Below, one piece after another: positions 21,915 to 29,779 of a stretch of DNA of 34,604 bases. Every line of letters begins with the position of its first letter. Position 1 is the stretch's first letter. Both the position numbers and the translations under genes were made by a program. The stretch is taken from positions 1 to 34,604 of the IMG/VR virus record IMGVR_UViG_3300042261_000457; one strand, given 5' to 3'. Under the pieces are notes generated by a model. That model was not told where the DNA came from. It worked only from the letters and a program-made list of their open reading frames with translations, and did no database searches. The DNA is from a virus.

Positions 21915-22875
21915 TTTTGTGCATCCTTTAAGGCTTTGTTTTTGGCGCTTATGAAATCAATATGTCTACGAAGCGTATCTCTTCTGATGAAGTTAGTCCA
22001 AGAAAGGACTTCACTCCTTGGTTGATGAAGTTCTCGTATGGTGTGATAGACTTCTTCGTCGAAGGAATCTAGGCTTTGTTTTAGGAAGGAAAAAAGCAGG
22101 GCATAATCTTTGAAGCCAAGTTTTGCTTGGCTATTTGCTAATTCTACCCCGCTGGTAATAAAAAATCTCTATGCACCAAGATGTTCATTACAAAAGACTC
22201 TTCACACTTAGGACAAGTAACACTTATGTTAGTATCATACCCACAAATAAGTTTTTTCCTGGCCTTCCTGATAGCTTTATGGTCTGCTAAAGGAAGAACT
22301 ATTACATCCTCAAAACTAAAATCAATCTCACCGTCTAATGCTCTGAGTGCTTTAAATGATGCTTGGTTGATATCTGGGCCTGTGGTTGCAGCCAACATCA
22401 ACAAATCAAGTTCTTTTTCTCCCGTCAGCATTCCGACCACGGCAGTTTTTTTGCTCTTAGGAAGAGTAATGTTAATAATAGGATCAGGCCCTGTTAACTC
22501 TTTGCTAAGTTCGATAAATGTCAACTTAGTCAGATTAACTATCTGGTCGCTCTCTGCATCACAGGATGGACAAGAAAATTCAAACTCAAAGTCATCGCCA
22601 TAATTCAAACGATAGGCTTCTATTGACAAGAATTCCTGGTCGGGTGTTAGTAATTTCAAAACATCTGACCGACTAATATTAGGTCGATCATCAATCGTTA
22701 CAACCATGGAAGCTAAATAATCGAACACAGAATCATAAATTCTTTTGTTCTTTTTTAGTAATGCTCTGGTTGAATATCCATCACCCTCCCGAATAACAAT
22801 CTTCTTCCCACTAATTGGGAGGGCGATATCTCTCGTTTCTCTATCTTCTAAAGACAAAATTTCCCCCGTAATCAC
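21911..22875 (-). CDS. Tail assembly chaperone, -1 frameshift product (321 aa)
   Basis: If ribosomes slip back one base at U UUU UUA (22165-22159), residues 1-239 of the chaperone are followed by 82 codons in the -1 frame. These begin ITSGVELANSQAKLGF and end ALKDAQK, with TGA at 21913-21911 overlapping the tape measure GTG. No codon of this extension is ATG, GTG or TTG, so it cannot start alone in the usual way, yet it fills the otherwise empty gap before the tape measure. The extension is helical and charged (SFLKQSLDSFDEEVYHTIRE). The arrangement equals lambda G-GT and P2 E-E', where the long form links the chaperone to tape measure and tube. Confidence 0.72.
22114..22132 (-). promoter_or_regulatory. 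Hairpin downstream of the slippery site
   Basis: AGCCAAG and CTTGGCT form a perfect 7-bp stem with a 5-base loop. It begins 26 bases after the slippery heptamer, farther than the usual 5-9 bases, so a stimulatory role is possible rather than certain. Confidence 0.5.
22144..22875 (-). CDS. Tail assembly chaperone, zinc-ribbon T4_baseplate/gp26-like, short form
   Basis: A 243-residue protein starts with GTG at 22875, overlapping the tube stop as TAGTG. It contains two CPxC pairs, C102/C105 (SCPSCDAE) and C221/C224 (TCPKCEES), which together look like one zinc site. Helical sequence lies between them. This architecture is known for T4 gp26-like proteins and for chaperones encoded between tube and tape measure genes of many myophages. 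The role is to coat the tape measure during tube assembly. Near the 3' end, GAT TTT TTA contains an in-frame U UUU UUA heptamer, five codons before the stop, and a second product is predicted (see next entry). Confidence 0.75.
   Translation of the reverse strand: MITGEILSLEDRETRDIALPISGKKIVIREGDGYSTRALLKKNKRIYDSVFDYLASMVVTIDDRPNISRSDVLKLLTPDQEFLSIEAYRLNYGDDFEFEFSCPSCDAESDQIVNLTKLTFIELSKELTGPDPIINITLPKSKKTAVVGMLTGEKELDLLMLAATTGPDINQASFKALRALDGEIDFSFEDVIVLPLADHKAIRKARKKLICGYDTNISVTCPKCEESFVMNILVHRDFLLPAG
22159..22165 (-). promoter_or_regulatory. Programmed -1 frameshift slippery heptamer U UUU UUA
   Basis: On the minus strand the codons read GAT TTT TTA TTA, so the heptamer is phased exactly as X XXY YYZ for tandem slippage. 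It is five codons upstream of the zero-frame stop. Confidence 0.75.
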
Positions 22876-27558: not shown

Positions 27559-27944
27559 AACCCTGCAACTCCTACCCCAGGCCACCTATCGGCAGTAACC
27601 AAAGAACTGGGTGATGCTGCGCTGGCAGCCGCTATCTTTCTAGCCTCTAACTCATCTCGAAGAGCCTCTAGGTATTTTATAGCATCCTGAAATTCGACGC
27701 TTGCCGTTCCACCCGCAGTTTTCTTTATCTCTTGTGCGAACTTCAACAACAAACGACTAACAAAAGATTTGGTTACTAGTATTGCAATATATGCTGATCT
27801 CTTGTCGGTTAGATCAATAACTCCCCATCCCTGCAAAGCCATTTCTGCTTCTACTCTAGCAGGTATTGCGTCCCTTAAAGTTGGGTCTAATGCCAAGACA
27901 GGGTCTAGATCGATTGCTACTAAGGCTTCTGCCGATACAGCCAT
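27555..27944 (-). CDS. Head completion/connector candidate, helical, 129 aa
   Basis: The ATG at 27944 overlaps the preceding stop as TAATG. The protein is nearly all helical and Ala-rich (LALDPTLRDAIPARVEAEMA, then DAIKYLEALRDELEARKIAA), ending in a flexible segment DRWPGVGVAGL. The size and helical content resemble adaptor-type head completion proteins (gp6/gp15 class), and it is placed just after capsid genes. No specific motif supports the call, so it rests on context. Confidence 0.55.
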   Translation of the reverse strand: MAVSAEALVAIDLDPVLALDPTLRDAIPARVEAEMALQGWGVIDLTDKRSAYIAILVTKSFVSRLLLKFAQEIKKTAGGTASVEFQDAIKYLEALRDELEARKIAAASAASPSSLVTADRWPGVGVAGL

Positions 27945-28432
27945 TATTTTTCACCCATGTCGTGTATCAGGATGTTCTTTGCAAGCGTGTTAGAACTGGT
28001 GTTACCCTTTACTTGAAGCCCTCTCTCTTTCGCCATCTGCTTGAGTTCAGACTTTGTCTTGTCTGCTAGAAGTTTCTTGATCTCGTCCTGTAACTGGAAG
28101 AGTGCAACTTTTCGGGTAACTACCGAAGGTTTTACTTCCTCGGTTACCTCTGCCACTATCTCTACCGCAGGGATTTCTACATCGATAGCAGCAATGTCGG
28201 CGCTAGGCGGTGGTTCAGGCTCTGTTACGGCCTCTATTTTTACTTCCTCCGAAACAGGTTTATTTAAAAATGAGGGAACCTCATCCTTTTCGATCAAGAT
28301 TCCCCCTCCATTCAACCAGAGCCTAGTCAAGTAGCCAATGTTTTCAACTTCTTTAACTTCCCCCCCAGACAGTCTAAGTTTAGTCTCAGGATCAAAGAAG
28401 AGTGCATTCTTATTAGCTAGTCTGACTTTCAT
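27944..28432 (-). CDS. Virion-region protein with C-terminal SAP/Rho-N-like motif, 162 aa
   Basis: The ATG at 28432 is preceded by GAAGG nine bases upstream. Residues 1-55 are a small beta domain (VRLANKNALFFDPETKLRL, GYLTRLWLNGGG). Residues 60-110 are Glu/Pro/Val-rich and probably disordered (TEPEPPPSADIAAIDVEIP). Residues 125-158, with TKSELKQMAKERGLQVKG and then NTLAKNIL, fit a SAP/HeH/Rho-N helix-extended-helix motif, known to bind nucleic acid or act as a capsid adaptor in several phages. The gene sits directly after the non-coding structured element downstream of the capsid gene. Function not established. Confidence 0.65.
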   Translation of the reverse strand: MKVRLANKNALFFDPETKLRLSGGEVKEVENIGYLTRLWLNGGGILIEKDEVPSFLNKPVSEEVKIEAVTEPEPPPSADIAAIDVEIPAVEIVAEVTEEVKPSVVTRKVALFQLQDEIKKLLADKTKSELKQMAKERGLQVKGNTSSNTLAKNILIHDMGEK

Positions 28433-28465
28433 TTAACAACTACCTTCAGTGTTTTGGTAAGAAAA

Positions 28466-28636
28466 TTATTGACACTCCCCATACCTAAAGGCAGGGGATT
28501 CTTAGGCAACCAGACCCAACGGTTTGGTTAGCGCCTGAAGGGTCTGCCCGACCCTTGAAATATTCTTGGCGGCTAAAGCCGAGGGATTGAAACCCATAAG
28601 AGTTTCGGCCAAAAGCCTCAAGTGAGGCTATTGACC
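28466..28636 (+). ncRNA. Solitary omega-RNA-like element (HEARO / IS200-IS605-end type)
   Basis: About 170 bases without an ORF lie between the capsid gene (stop at 28655) and the next start (28432). Read on the plus strand, hairpins follow closely: TCCCC/GGGGA (28476-28498), CCAGACC/GGTTTGG (28510-28527) enclosed by AGGC/GCCT, AAGGGTC/GACCCTT (28538-28556), CGGC/GCCG (28570-28581), GAAAC/GTTTC (28589-28606) and AGCCTC/GAGGCT (28614-28629). TATTGAC flanks both ends (28467-28473, 28629-28635). The GACACTCCCC start and TGCCCGACCC core recall HEARO/IscB omega-RNAs and IS605 ends; this is from memory. A TnpB-type RNA on the minus strand is the alternative: a G-U pair in hairpin 1 favours minus, one in hairpin 2 favours plus. 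No IscB or TnpB gene is in the window. Confidence 0.5.
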
Positions 28637-28654
28637 TTCATTGTTGTGTTGTAG

Positions 28655-29779
28655 TTAAATCAAAGGAGCCATATAACTCGGAAAACCATTAGCGGCAAAA
28701 GTCTTGGTTCCGTCGATTATAACTCTAGCAGACCTGTCGATAGTTGAAAAACCACCAATCAAGCTACAAGCGGTGCCCTGAATCTGACGCATCACGATAC
28801 GCTCTGATTCTACGGTAAGCCCTCTGAATGCCAGATAGAGCATTGACTGTGTTTTGTCGAACAGGAGCGACTGATCATCACCCAAAGCGGAACCGATCAG
28901 GTGAGGCATATTGCTAGGTATAATGCGGTTTCTGCTGTCAAGATTTACAACCACCCCACCATTGTTCTGAGGAGTAGAGAATTCACTCAACTGCATGATT
29001 TTAAAAGAGGTAGCCTCGTTGTTAACTAGATTATTCCACTGCATAAAAATGCGACGGGCGCGAATCCATGCCTTCAGAAAATCCTTGAACTGAGTGCTGG
29101 TTCCGGTTTCTGTACCAATTATGGCGCAAGAATCTGAACCATCCGTTTGGTCACCATTGATAAGTACAGACATACCCTCTGAGTAAAGGCTACCCGACAA
29201 CATTACACCAAACTTCTCCAAGAAGTAAGATAGTAGTGGAAGAGGAGTAGACAGCATGAGTTCATCAGTTATATGAATAGCTTTTGCTTTCTTTTTGAGT
29301 CTAATGGTCTTCTCTCCCCACTCGATGTCGGCTTCAGCAATTGTCTCGGCCTCTGCCGTATCAAGAGCCTCCTCATTCTTTACGCGAATCCATGGGCTGG
29401 TTACAGTCAGAGAACCAATATTCTCAGAGCCAGCTACCAAATCCATATAGGAAGCATCAGCATTCAAACCCTTCAAGATGAAGTCTCTGATGACCTCAGG
29501 AGCTAGGTATCTCATGTCATCAGATATTGACAATAGGTTGTCCATTGTCAGTTTTGACGGATCAAGACCGAGGTCACACCAAATGTCAGTCCAAGTAATA
29601 GGCTGTCCTGATGTGTTTTTCAGTCCAACAGGCTGTTTGTCTTCATTGACTGCGCGGGTCTGCATGAAATCGATCAGGCTAATTTCTTGACCAGCTTCAC
29701 CGTCAGATCCACGAAATTTCTGCAAGGGACCATATACTCTTGTCCGAAAAGAGTTGGTCAATCCGAGTTCTCCACTCAT
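28655..29779 (-). CDS. Major capsid protein (HK97-fold)
   Basis: A 374-residue protein starts at the ATG at 29779 behind GGGGG. It follows the protease/scaffold and decoration genes, as usual. Landmarks consistent with an HK97-fold coat are a long helical N-terminus, the LVAGSENIGSLTVTSPWIRV segment leading to the E-loop region, EAETIAEADIEWGEKTIRLK, the spine-helix-like LPLLSYFLEKFGVMLSGSLY, and the C-terminal GTACSLIGGFSTIDRSARV. The length fits the family. The cleavage site of the upstream protease cannot be placed from sequence alone. Forms the icosahedral shell. Confidence 0.82.
   Translation of the reverse strand: MSGELGLTNSFRTRVYGPLQKFRGSDGEAGQEISLIDFMQTRAVNEDKQPVGLKNTSGQPITWTDIWCDLGLDPSKLTMDNLLSISDDMRYLAPEVIRDFILKGLNADASYMDLVAGSENIGSLTVTSPWIRVKNEEALDTAEAETIAEADIEWGEKTIRLKKKAKAIHITDELMLSTPLPLLSYFLEKFGVMLSGSLYSEGMSVLINGDQTDGSDSCAIIGTETGTSTQFKDFLKAWIRARRIFMQWNNLVNNEATSFKIMQLSEFSTPQNNGGVVVNLDSRNRIIPSNMPHLIGSALGDDQSLLFDKTQSMLYLAFRGLTVESERIVMRQIQGTACSLIGGFSTIDRSARVIIDGTKTFAANGFPSYMAPLI

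Follow-up and report, generated by a model that had tools for sequence, protein, structure and literature searches.

A TnpB-type omega-RNA scaffold without its nuclease behind the capsid gene of a phage, probably a core-deleted IS605 relic

Introduction

The element ISDra2 encodes TnpB, and its omega-RNA extends over the 3′ end of tnpB as well as the right end; the scaffold measures 116 nt, the guide lies 3′ of the right end, and a pseudoknot is formed by bases −5 to −3 before the guide (PMC10097598). TnpB guides are located immediately 3′ of the right-end tip, and TnpB cuts the omega-RNA out of its own mRNA (PMC10278001). Core-deleted, transposase-free IS605 derivatives, the PATEs, have been described from Haloquadratum walsbyi (PMC3119063). 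HEARO/IscB omega-RNAs (RF02033) are likewise compact structured RNAs of the IS200/IS605 superfamily.

Here we describe an insert in a phage structural operon that combines traits of these systems. As in ISDra2, the omega-RNA overlaps the tnpB 3′ end and the right end, the guide position is 3′ of the right end, and the bases equivalent to −5 to −3 are predicted to pair; unlike ISDra2, the element is without TnpB, and its modelled core measures about 86 nt. With the PATEs it shares an apparently deleted core and the lack of a transposase; its right palindrome is intact, and of the putative left palindrome one half is present. However, PATEs reside on archaeal chromosomes and were described before omega-RNAs were known, whereas the present element sits in a phage operon and its conserved part is the RNA scaffold. 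HEARO/IscB RNAs resemble it in compactness and superfamily, but no covariance match to RF02033 was obtained, and the strand, the side of the guide and the protein remnant are all of the TnpB type.

Results

A structured gap behind the capsid gene

The window, that is, the whole stretch of DNA analysed, is a virus record of 34,604 bases (IMGVR_UViG_3300042261_000457) in which every evident gene lies on the minus strand, with products comprising portal/head, protease, major capsid, tail sheath and baseplate proteins. Between the capsid gene and the next gene there are 222 nt of non-coding, strongly structured sequence.

28655–29779, minus strand: major capsid gene, upstream of the element (phrog_3922, E 4.8e-29; PF05065 slightly below the cut-off)
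27944–28432, minus strand: next gene of the operon, function unassigned, without a match in Pfam and PHROG searches

The minus-strand fold reaches −72.8 kcal/mol (z = −5.0 against 200 dinucleotide shuffles) and the plus strand of the same insert gives z = −4.0. The ORF-free hairpin array that the initial annotation had placed between the two genes is thus present, with about six hairpins on the minus strand. It had contrasted this gap with the other junctions, almost all of them overlapping or very short, but two further gaps, of 247 and 229 nt, are about as long, so that spacing alone does not set this junction apart. The 229-nt gap, at 21915–22143, separates an 856-aa gene from a 243-aa gene, a position at which a frameshifted tail assembly chaperone is commonly located.

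An omega-RNA of the TnpB type on the minus strand

Almost certainly, the insert is the remnant of a TnpB-type omega-RNA. Its sense strand is minus, like that of the operon's genes, which corrects the initial annotation. The following features were recognised.

28469–28554, minus strand: TnpB-type omega-RNA scaffold core, full-length match to covariance model R1
28469–28503, minus strand: IS605 right-end terminal hairpin with GTGTCAA tip, AAGAATCCCCTGCCTTTAGGTATGGGGAGTGTCAA, recognised by identity to other right ends
28540–28554, minus strand: hairpin P1, GGGTC-GGGCA-GACCC, its pairing extendable to 28538–28556 (7 bp)
28545–28548, minus strand: 5′ strand, GGCA, of a predicted pseudoknot with UGUC at 28474–28471
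28504–28536, minus strand: stem P2, AGGC/GCCT, enclosing hairpin P3 in the minus-strand fold
28449–28468, minus strand: guide position, TAATTTTCTTACCAAAACAC, immediately 3′ of the right-end tip

Model R1 was built from 10 other phage-borne omega-RNAs, 7 of them tnpB-linked, with the window sequence left out. It matched 28554–28469 (minus strand) over its full length with 66.6 bits and an E-value of 1.8e-12 (E-values from this model are rough), the sole match in the window; the covariance check on which the omega-RNA assignment had been made to depend was therefore positive, for the TnpB-type model and on one strand. The terminal 35 nt, AAGAATCCCCTGCCTTTAGGTATGGGGAGTGTCAA, agree at 34 positions (97%) with right ends found in viral contigs, and several to many of these lie directly behind a tnpB gene; annotated examples come from Geobacillus phage E3, Nodularia phages and a Nostoc plasmid.

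The pairing of P1 occurs in all 10 reference sequences, with 3 of its 5 pairs altered on both sides; among the counterparts of P1 in other omega-RNAs, the stem varies with compensatory changes and the loop is constant as GG[G/A][C/T][A/G]. Over the ten reference omega-RNAs, the helices are paired in 95.3% of cells (84.6% when shuffled), and 19 cells are changed on both sides compared with 6.0 in shuffles, all slid controls being far lower. Pairing of the loop with UGUC is possible in 10 of the 10 references, every loop change being G-U compatible, and the 3′ strand of this pseudoknot occupies positions −6 to −3 before the guide, thereby including −5 to −3. Stem P2 is found in the reference set but is the weakest helix there, and it is bulged in the window. 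Collectively, P1, the bulged P2, the terminal stem and the pseudoknot are all predicted to be able to form, and the scaffold is apparently intact as a scaffold for TnpB guide RNAs. Should the element be of the TnpB type, the initial annotation had expected the guide in the flank that precedes 28466, on the opposite strand; the guide position is indeed 28468–28449 (minus strand), behind the right-end tip. Further 12-nt guide matches with fewer than two mismatches were not found in the window.

The tail of tnpB and a related complete element

The omega-RNA overlaps the 3′ end of a tnpB gene, of which 23 in-frame codons and the stop remain (28573–28502), terminating just before the terminal hairpin.

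28502–28573, minus strand: tnpB 3′ remnant, AAKNISRVGQTLQALTKPLGLVA then TAA, the last 23 codons plus stop, in frame
28570–28589, minus strand: putative left-end-like half hairpin, CAATCCCTCGGCTTTAGCCG, the 3′ arm of which would have been lost at the deletion junction

A search of viral contigs for TCGGGCAGAC followed by AAGAATCCCC yielded seven loci, among which L073 (IMGVR_UViG_3300037132_000058) and L074 (3300048762_000133) are most like the window. L073:643–2286 and the reverse complement of L074, 4580–6223, hold the same 1644-bp element, 100% identical within unrelated flanks, which indicates that elements of this kind move between phages and suggests that this movement was very recent. 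The element of L073 encodes a 377-aa TnpB (NF040570, E 1.4e-90), and the frame upstream of tnpB reads, by eye, like a Y1 transposase. The tail AAKNISRVGQTLQALTKPLGLVA-stop aligns with the end of this TnpB, AARNILSRGVGQTPQVLTWEVAPCVA-stop, and this complete IS605 element is the best match to the tail: with the terminal hairpin excluded, the DNA match scores 52 (top of 2000 shuffles, 34), and the protein match, weaker than that of the DNA, scores 38, a value attained in 2 of 5000 shuffles. Common to L073/L074 and the window are the GGGTCGGGCAGACCC hairpin, a TCAGG[T/C]GCTAAC segment, the tnpB tail overlapping the omega-RNA and a right end of the form AAGAATCCCC...GGGGAGTGTCAA. They differ in that L073 is complete, with tnpB, the upstream transposase-like frame and both ends within 1644 bp, whereas the window retains 23 tnpB codons and a truncated left hairpin. 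Two genome-wide pattern scans for a parent returned nothing, and no cellular parent was found; in viral contigs, patterns GGTTGCCTAAG... and TCAATCCCTCGG... had no matches and GGTTGNCTAAGAATCCCC had two chance matches only.

Similarity to the tnpB of L073 starts abruptly at 28573, where it adjoins the half hairpin, so the core appears to have been deleted, as in the haloarchaeal PATEs. The half hairpin CAATCCCTCGGCTTTAGCCG resembles a left-end-like hairpin, gCAATCCCCttGCTTTAGCtatGGGG, of the solitary element L054. The simplest reading is that a deletion joined the left end to the end of tnpB; a GCCG shared at the junction would suit a deletion between short repeats, as a possible microhomology.

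Boundaries and site of insertion

The element spans about 28610–28469 on the minus strand, with the right end at 28469 and the left end between 28595 and 28611, most likely at 28610. On the capsid side it is adjoined by one further feature.

28611–28629, minus strand: hairpin presumed to be the capsid-gene terminator, with the first bases of its T-tract, outside the element, by comparison with hairpins of relatives

Three distant relatives were found (L018, L019 and L020; capsids 32–35% identical), none of which carries the element; its presence in all relatives as an ordinary spacer would have spoken against the initial annotation. Their junctions measure 86–93 nt and are too divergent for base-by-base alignment, and a close relative with an empty site did not turn up. 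In all three, a terminator-like hairpin followed by a T run stands at the capsid junction, and the first hairpin of the array, 28614–28629, is therefore probably part of the capsid terminator. In the window this hairpin, the nearest to the capsid stop, is followed by only TTT and then GG. A minus-strand terminator scan detected none at the present junction but did so after the flanks had been joined: 28611 joined to 28468 gives AGCCTCACTTGAGGCT-TTTTAATTTT, and the 80-nt junction so formed holds a terminator, suggesting that the element inserted into its T-tract. The uninterrupted junction predicted from the joined flanks reads GAGGCTTTT-TAATTTTC. Joins at 28610–28616 also pass the terminator rule, as do others with different hairpins; since several joins restore a terminator, the left boundary is supported but not fixed.

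The heptamer TATTGAC, proposed earlier to bound the element on both sides, proved to be no boundary. It occurs 12 times in the window compared with 5.4 copies expected (0 of 100 shuffles were as high); the copy at 28467–28473 overlaps the conserved GTGTCAA and is the right-end tip plus flank, and the one at 28629–28635 overlaps the capsid-proximal hairpin. Its presence at both sides is probably a coincidence. IS200/IS605 elements insert without target duplication, and TATTGAC as a target duplication is ruled out by its 12 copies in the window.

Searches for a nuclease and for known RNA families

The statement that the window holds no nuclease or transposase was borne out, with no match to PF07282 (tnpB), PF01797 (Y1 transposase, tnpA) or the RRXRR domain in the 34.6-kb contig. 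The first two families were detected in control genomes; the RRXRR result is a weak negative, as the control gave no signal anywhere. With tnpA and tnpB both lacking a match, the contig does not carry an autonomous IS200/IS605 element, and because it is a genome fragment, a tnpB elsewhere in the phage is possible.

Rfam scans at gathering and permissive thresholds produced no meaningful match; in the permissive scan of 28380–28720, on both strands and with E up to 10, HEARO was not matched, and a targeted HEARO search was negative, its controls also giving no signal. A HEARO/IscB identity was rejected in view of the strand, the homology and the tnpB tail, the dedicated searches having had no signal from their controls. 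Of the initial proposal of an omega-RNA or IS200/IS605 right end lacking its nuclease, that core stood, and the HEARO/IscB type fell: all positive evidence, namely the terminal hairpin, the GGGCA-loop hairpin, the pseudoknot and the remnant tnpB codons, is for TnpB.

Other solitary omega-RNAs in phages

A census was made in 24 phage records selected for carrying such right ends or related sequences. Among matches of at least 60 bits, 10 adjoin a tnpB and 8 do not, a ratio that is illustrative and not an estimate, with some matches close to a contig end and L004, L054 and L079 also part of the covariance model. Since the same phage sequence accounts for three of the 8, six distinct cases are left, and near one of them (G023) there is a weak remnant of tnpB. 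L004, L015, L054, L003, L014 and L079 are solitary TnpB omega-RNAs that score strongly with the model and have no tnpB immediately upstream. L015 and L010, which lie on different contigs, match without a difference over 88 nt; the overlapping parts of L004, L011 and L016 are identical too, and these hence represent one phage, providing no test of selection on a shared solitary insertion. The open-access literature searched yielded no report of phage-borne solitary omega-RNAs of the TnpB type, although this does not prove that none exists. Altae-Tran et al. (2021) reportedly noted stand-alone omega-RNAs of IscB.

Very short elements are present at L065, L066, L068 and L070, where the left-end-like hairpin GCCGTAAAACCCCTxGCTTTAGCTATGGGG runs directly into AGTGTCAA; they resemble the 52-bp terminal-only PATEs of Haloquadratum.

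Discussion

With moderate confidence, we consider the element to be a passive core-deleted IS605 relic. An IS200/IS605 element related to that of L073/L074 would have inserted behind the capsid gene of an ancestral phage, probably in the T-tract of the terminator, its tnpB running the same way as the operon. Subsequently, a deletion within the element would have joined the left end directly to the last tnpB codons, removing nearly all of the coding sequence. The product would be a PATE-like, non-autonomous relic in which the omega-RNA scaffold for TnpB is apparently intact. Such a relic would presumably be transcribed within the late operon but idle, as no TnpB is encoded on the contig, and it may weaken the capsid terminator. 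Against passivity speaks the fact that the scaffold is still predicted to fold, pseudoknot included, since a relic long out of use would be under no need to retain either.

A functional solitary omega-RNA, excised from the operon transcript by a TnpB acting in trans and directing the cutting of siblings without the insertion, is a reading that we regard as rather unlikely. The TnpB would come from the host, from a co-infecting phage or from the part of this phage's genome that the contig lacks, the relic would spread or mark its site, and the carrier would be spared since its guide match is preceded by GTGTCAA, which is no target motif. Given a matching enzyme, the RNA could be cut out and aimed at TAATTTTCTTACCAAAACAC behind a target motif in empty-site siblings. 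Consistent with such a role, P1, the pseudoknot, the bulged P2 and the terminal stem could all form, other phages carry a solitary omega-RNA plus a tnpB elsewhere in the same record, and in G006 the scaffold of the solitary L054 is identical at 79 of 90 positions to that of the tnpB-linked L055. However, the contig is without TnpB, and the middle region of the omega-RNA differs between TnpB subfamilies, so that a matching enzyme would be required. The wider proposition is that solitary TnpB omega-RNAs serve phages as trans-acting guides: the scaffold would be retained after tnpB loss because a TnpB of the host, of a co-resident element or of a co-infecting phage would load it and cut empty-site siblings, giving the relic a putative drive in phage populations. 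We hold this to be unlikely. The idea of a guide in trans is also less novel than it seemed, because core-deleted IS605 elements have been described (PMC3119063) and other phage contigs contain solitary omega-RNAs.

In a further reading, the insert might be kept for phage gene expression: it would weaken the capsid terminator and form a stable structured spacer between the capsid and downstream messages, with effects on read-through, RNase processing or mRNA stability. The position directly behind the capsid gene, the z-score of −5.0 and a minus-strand terminator that is absent as the junction stands and present once the flanks are joined would all agree with this, but any insertion at that site would have the same effect, and the omega-RNA-specific GGGCA loop and GTGTCAA tip would need another explanation, which makes the reading improbable. 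Lastly, the good fold of the plus strand (z = −4.0) would be compatible with an IscB/HEARO omega-RNA with its guide upstream of 28466; yet the permissive Rfam scan gave no HEARO match, and all homology, together with the tnpB tail and the covariance model, indicates the TnpB type on the minus strand, leaving this assignment with hardly any likelihood.

The locus indicates that a TnpB guide-RNA scaffold can persist in a phage structural operon after the nuclease has been lost, and our small census suggests that such survival is not unique to this phage. If solitary scaffolds can be loaded in trans, a phage would not need to encode TnpB to take part in TnpB-driven competition between phages. If they are not, they would be fossils of IS605 insertion in phages, as well as false positives for structured-RNA searches.
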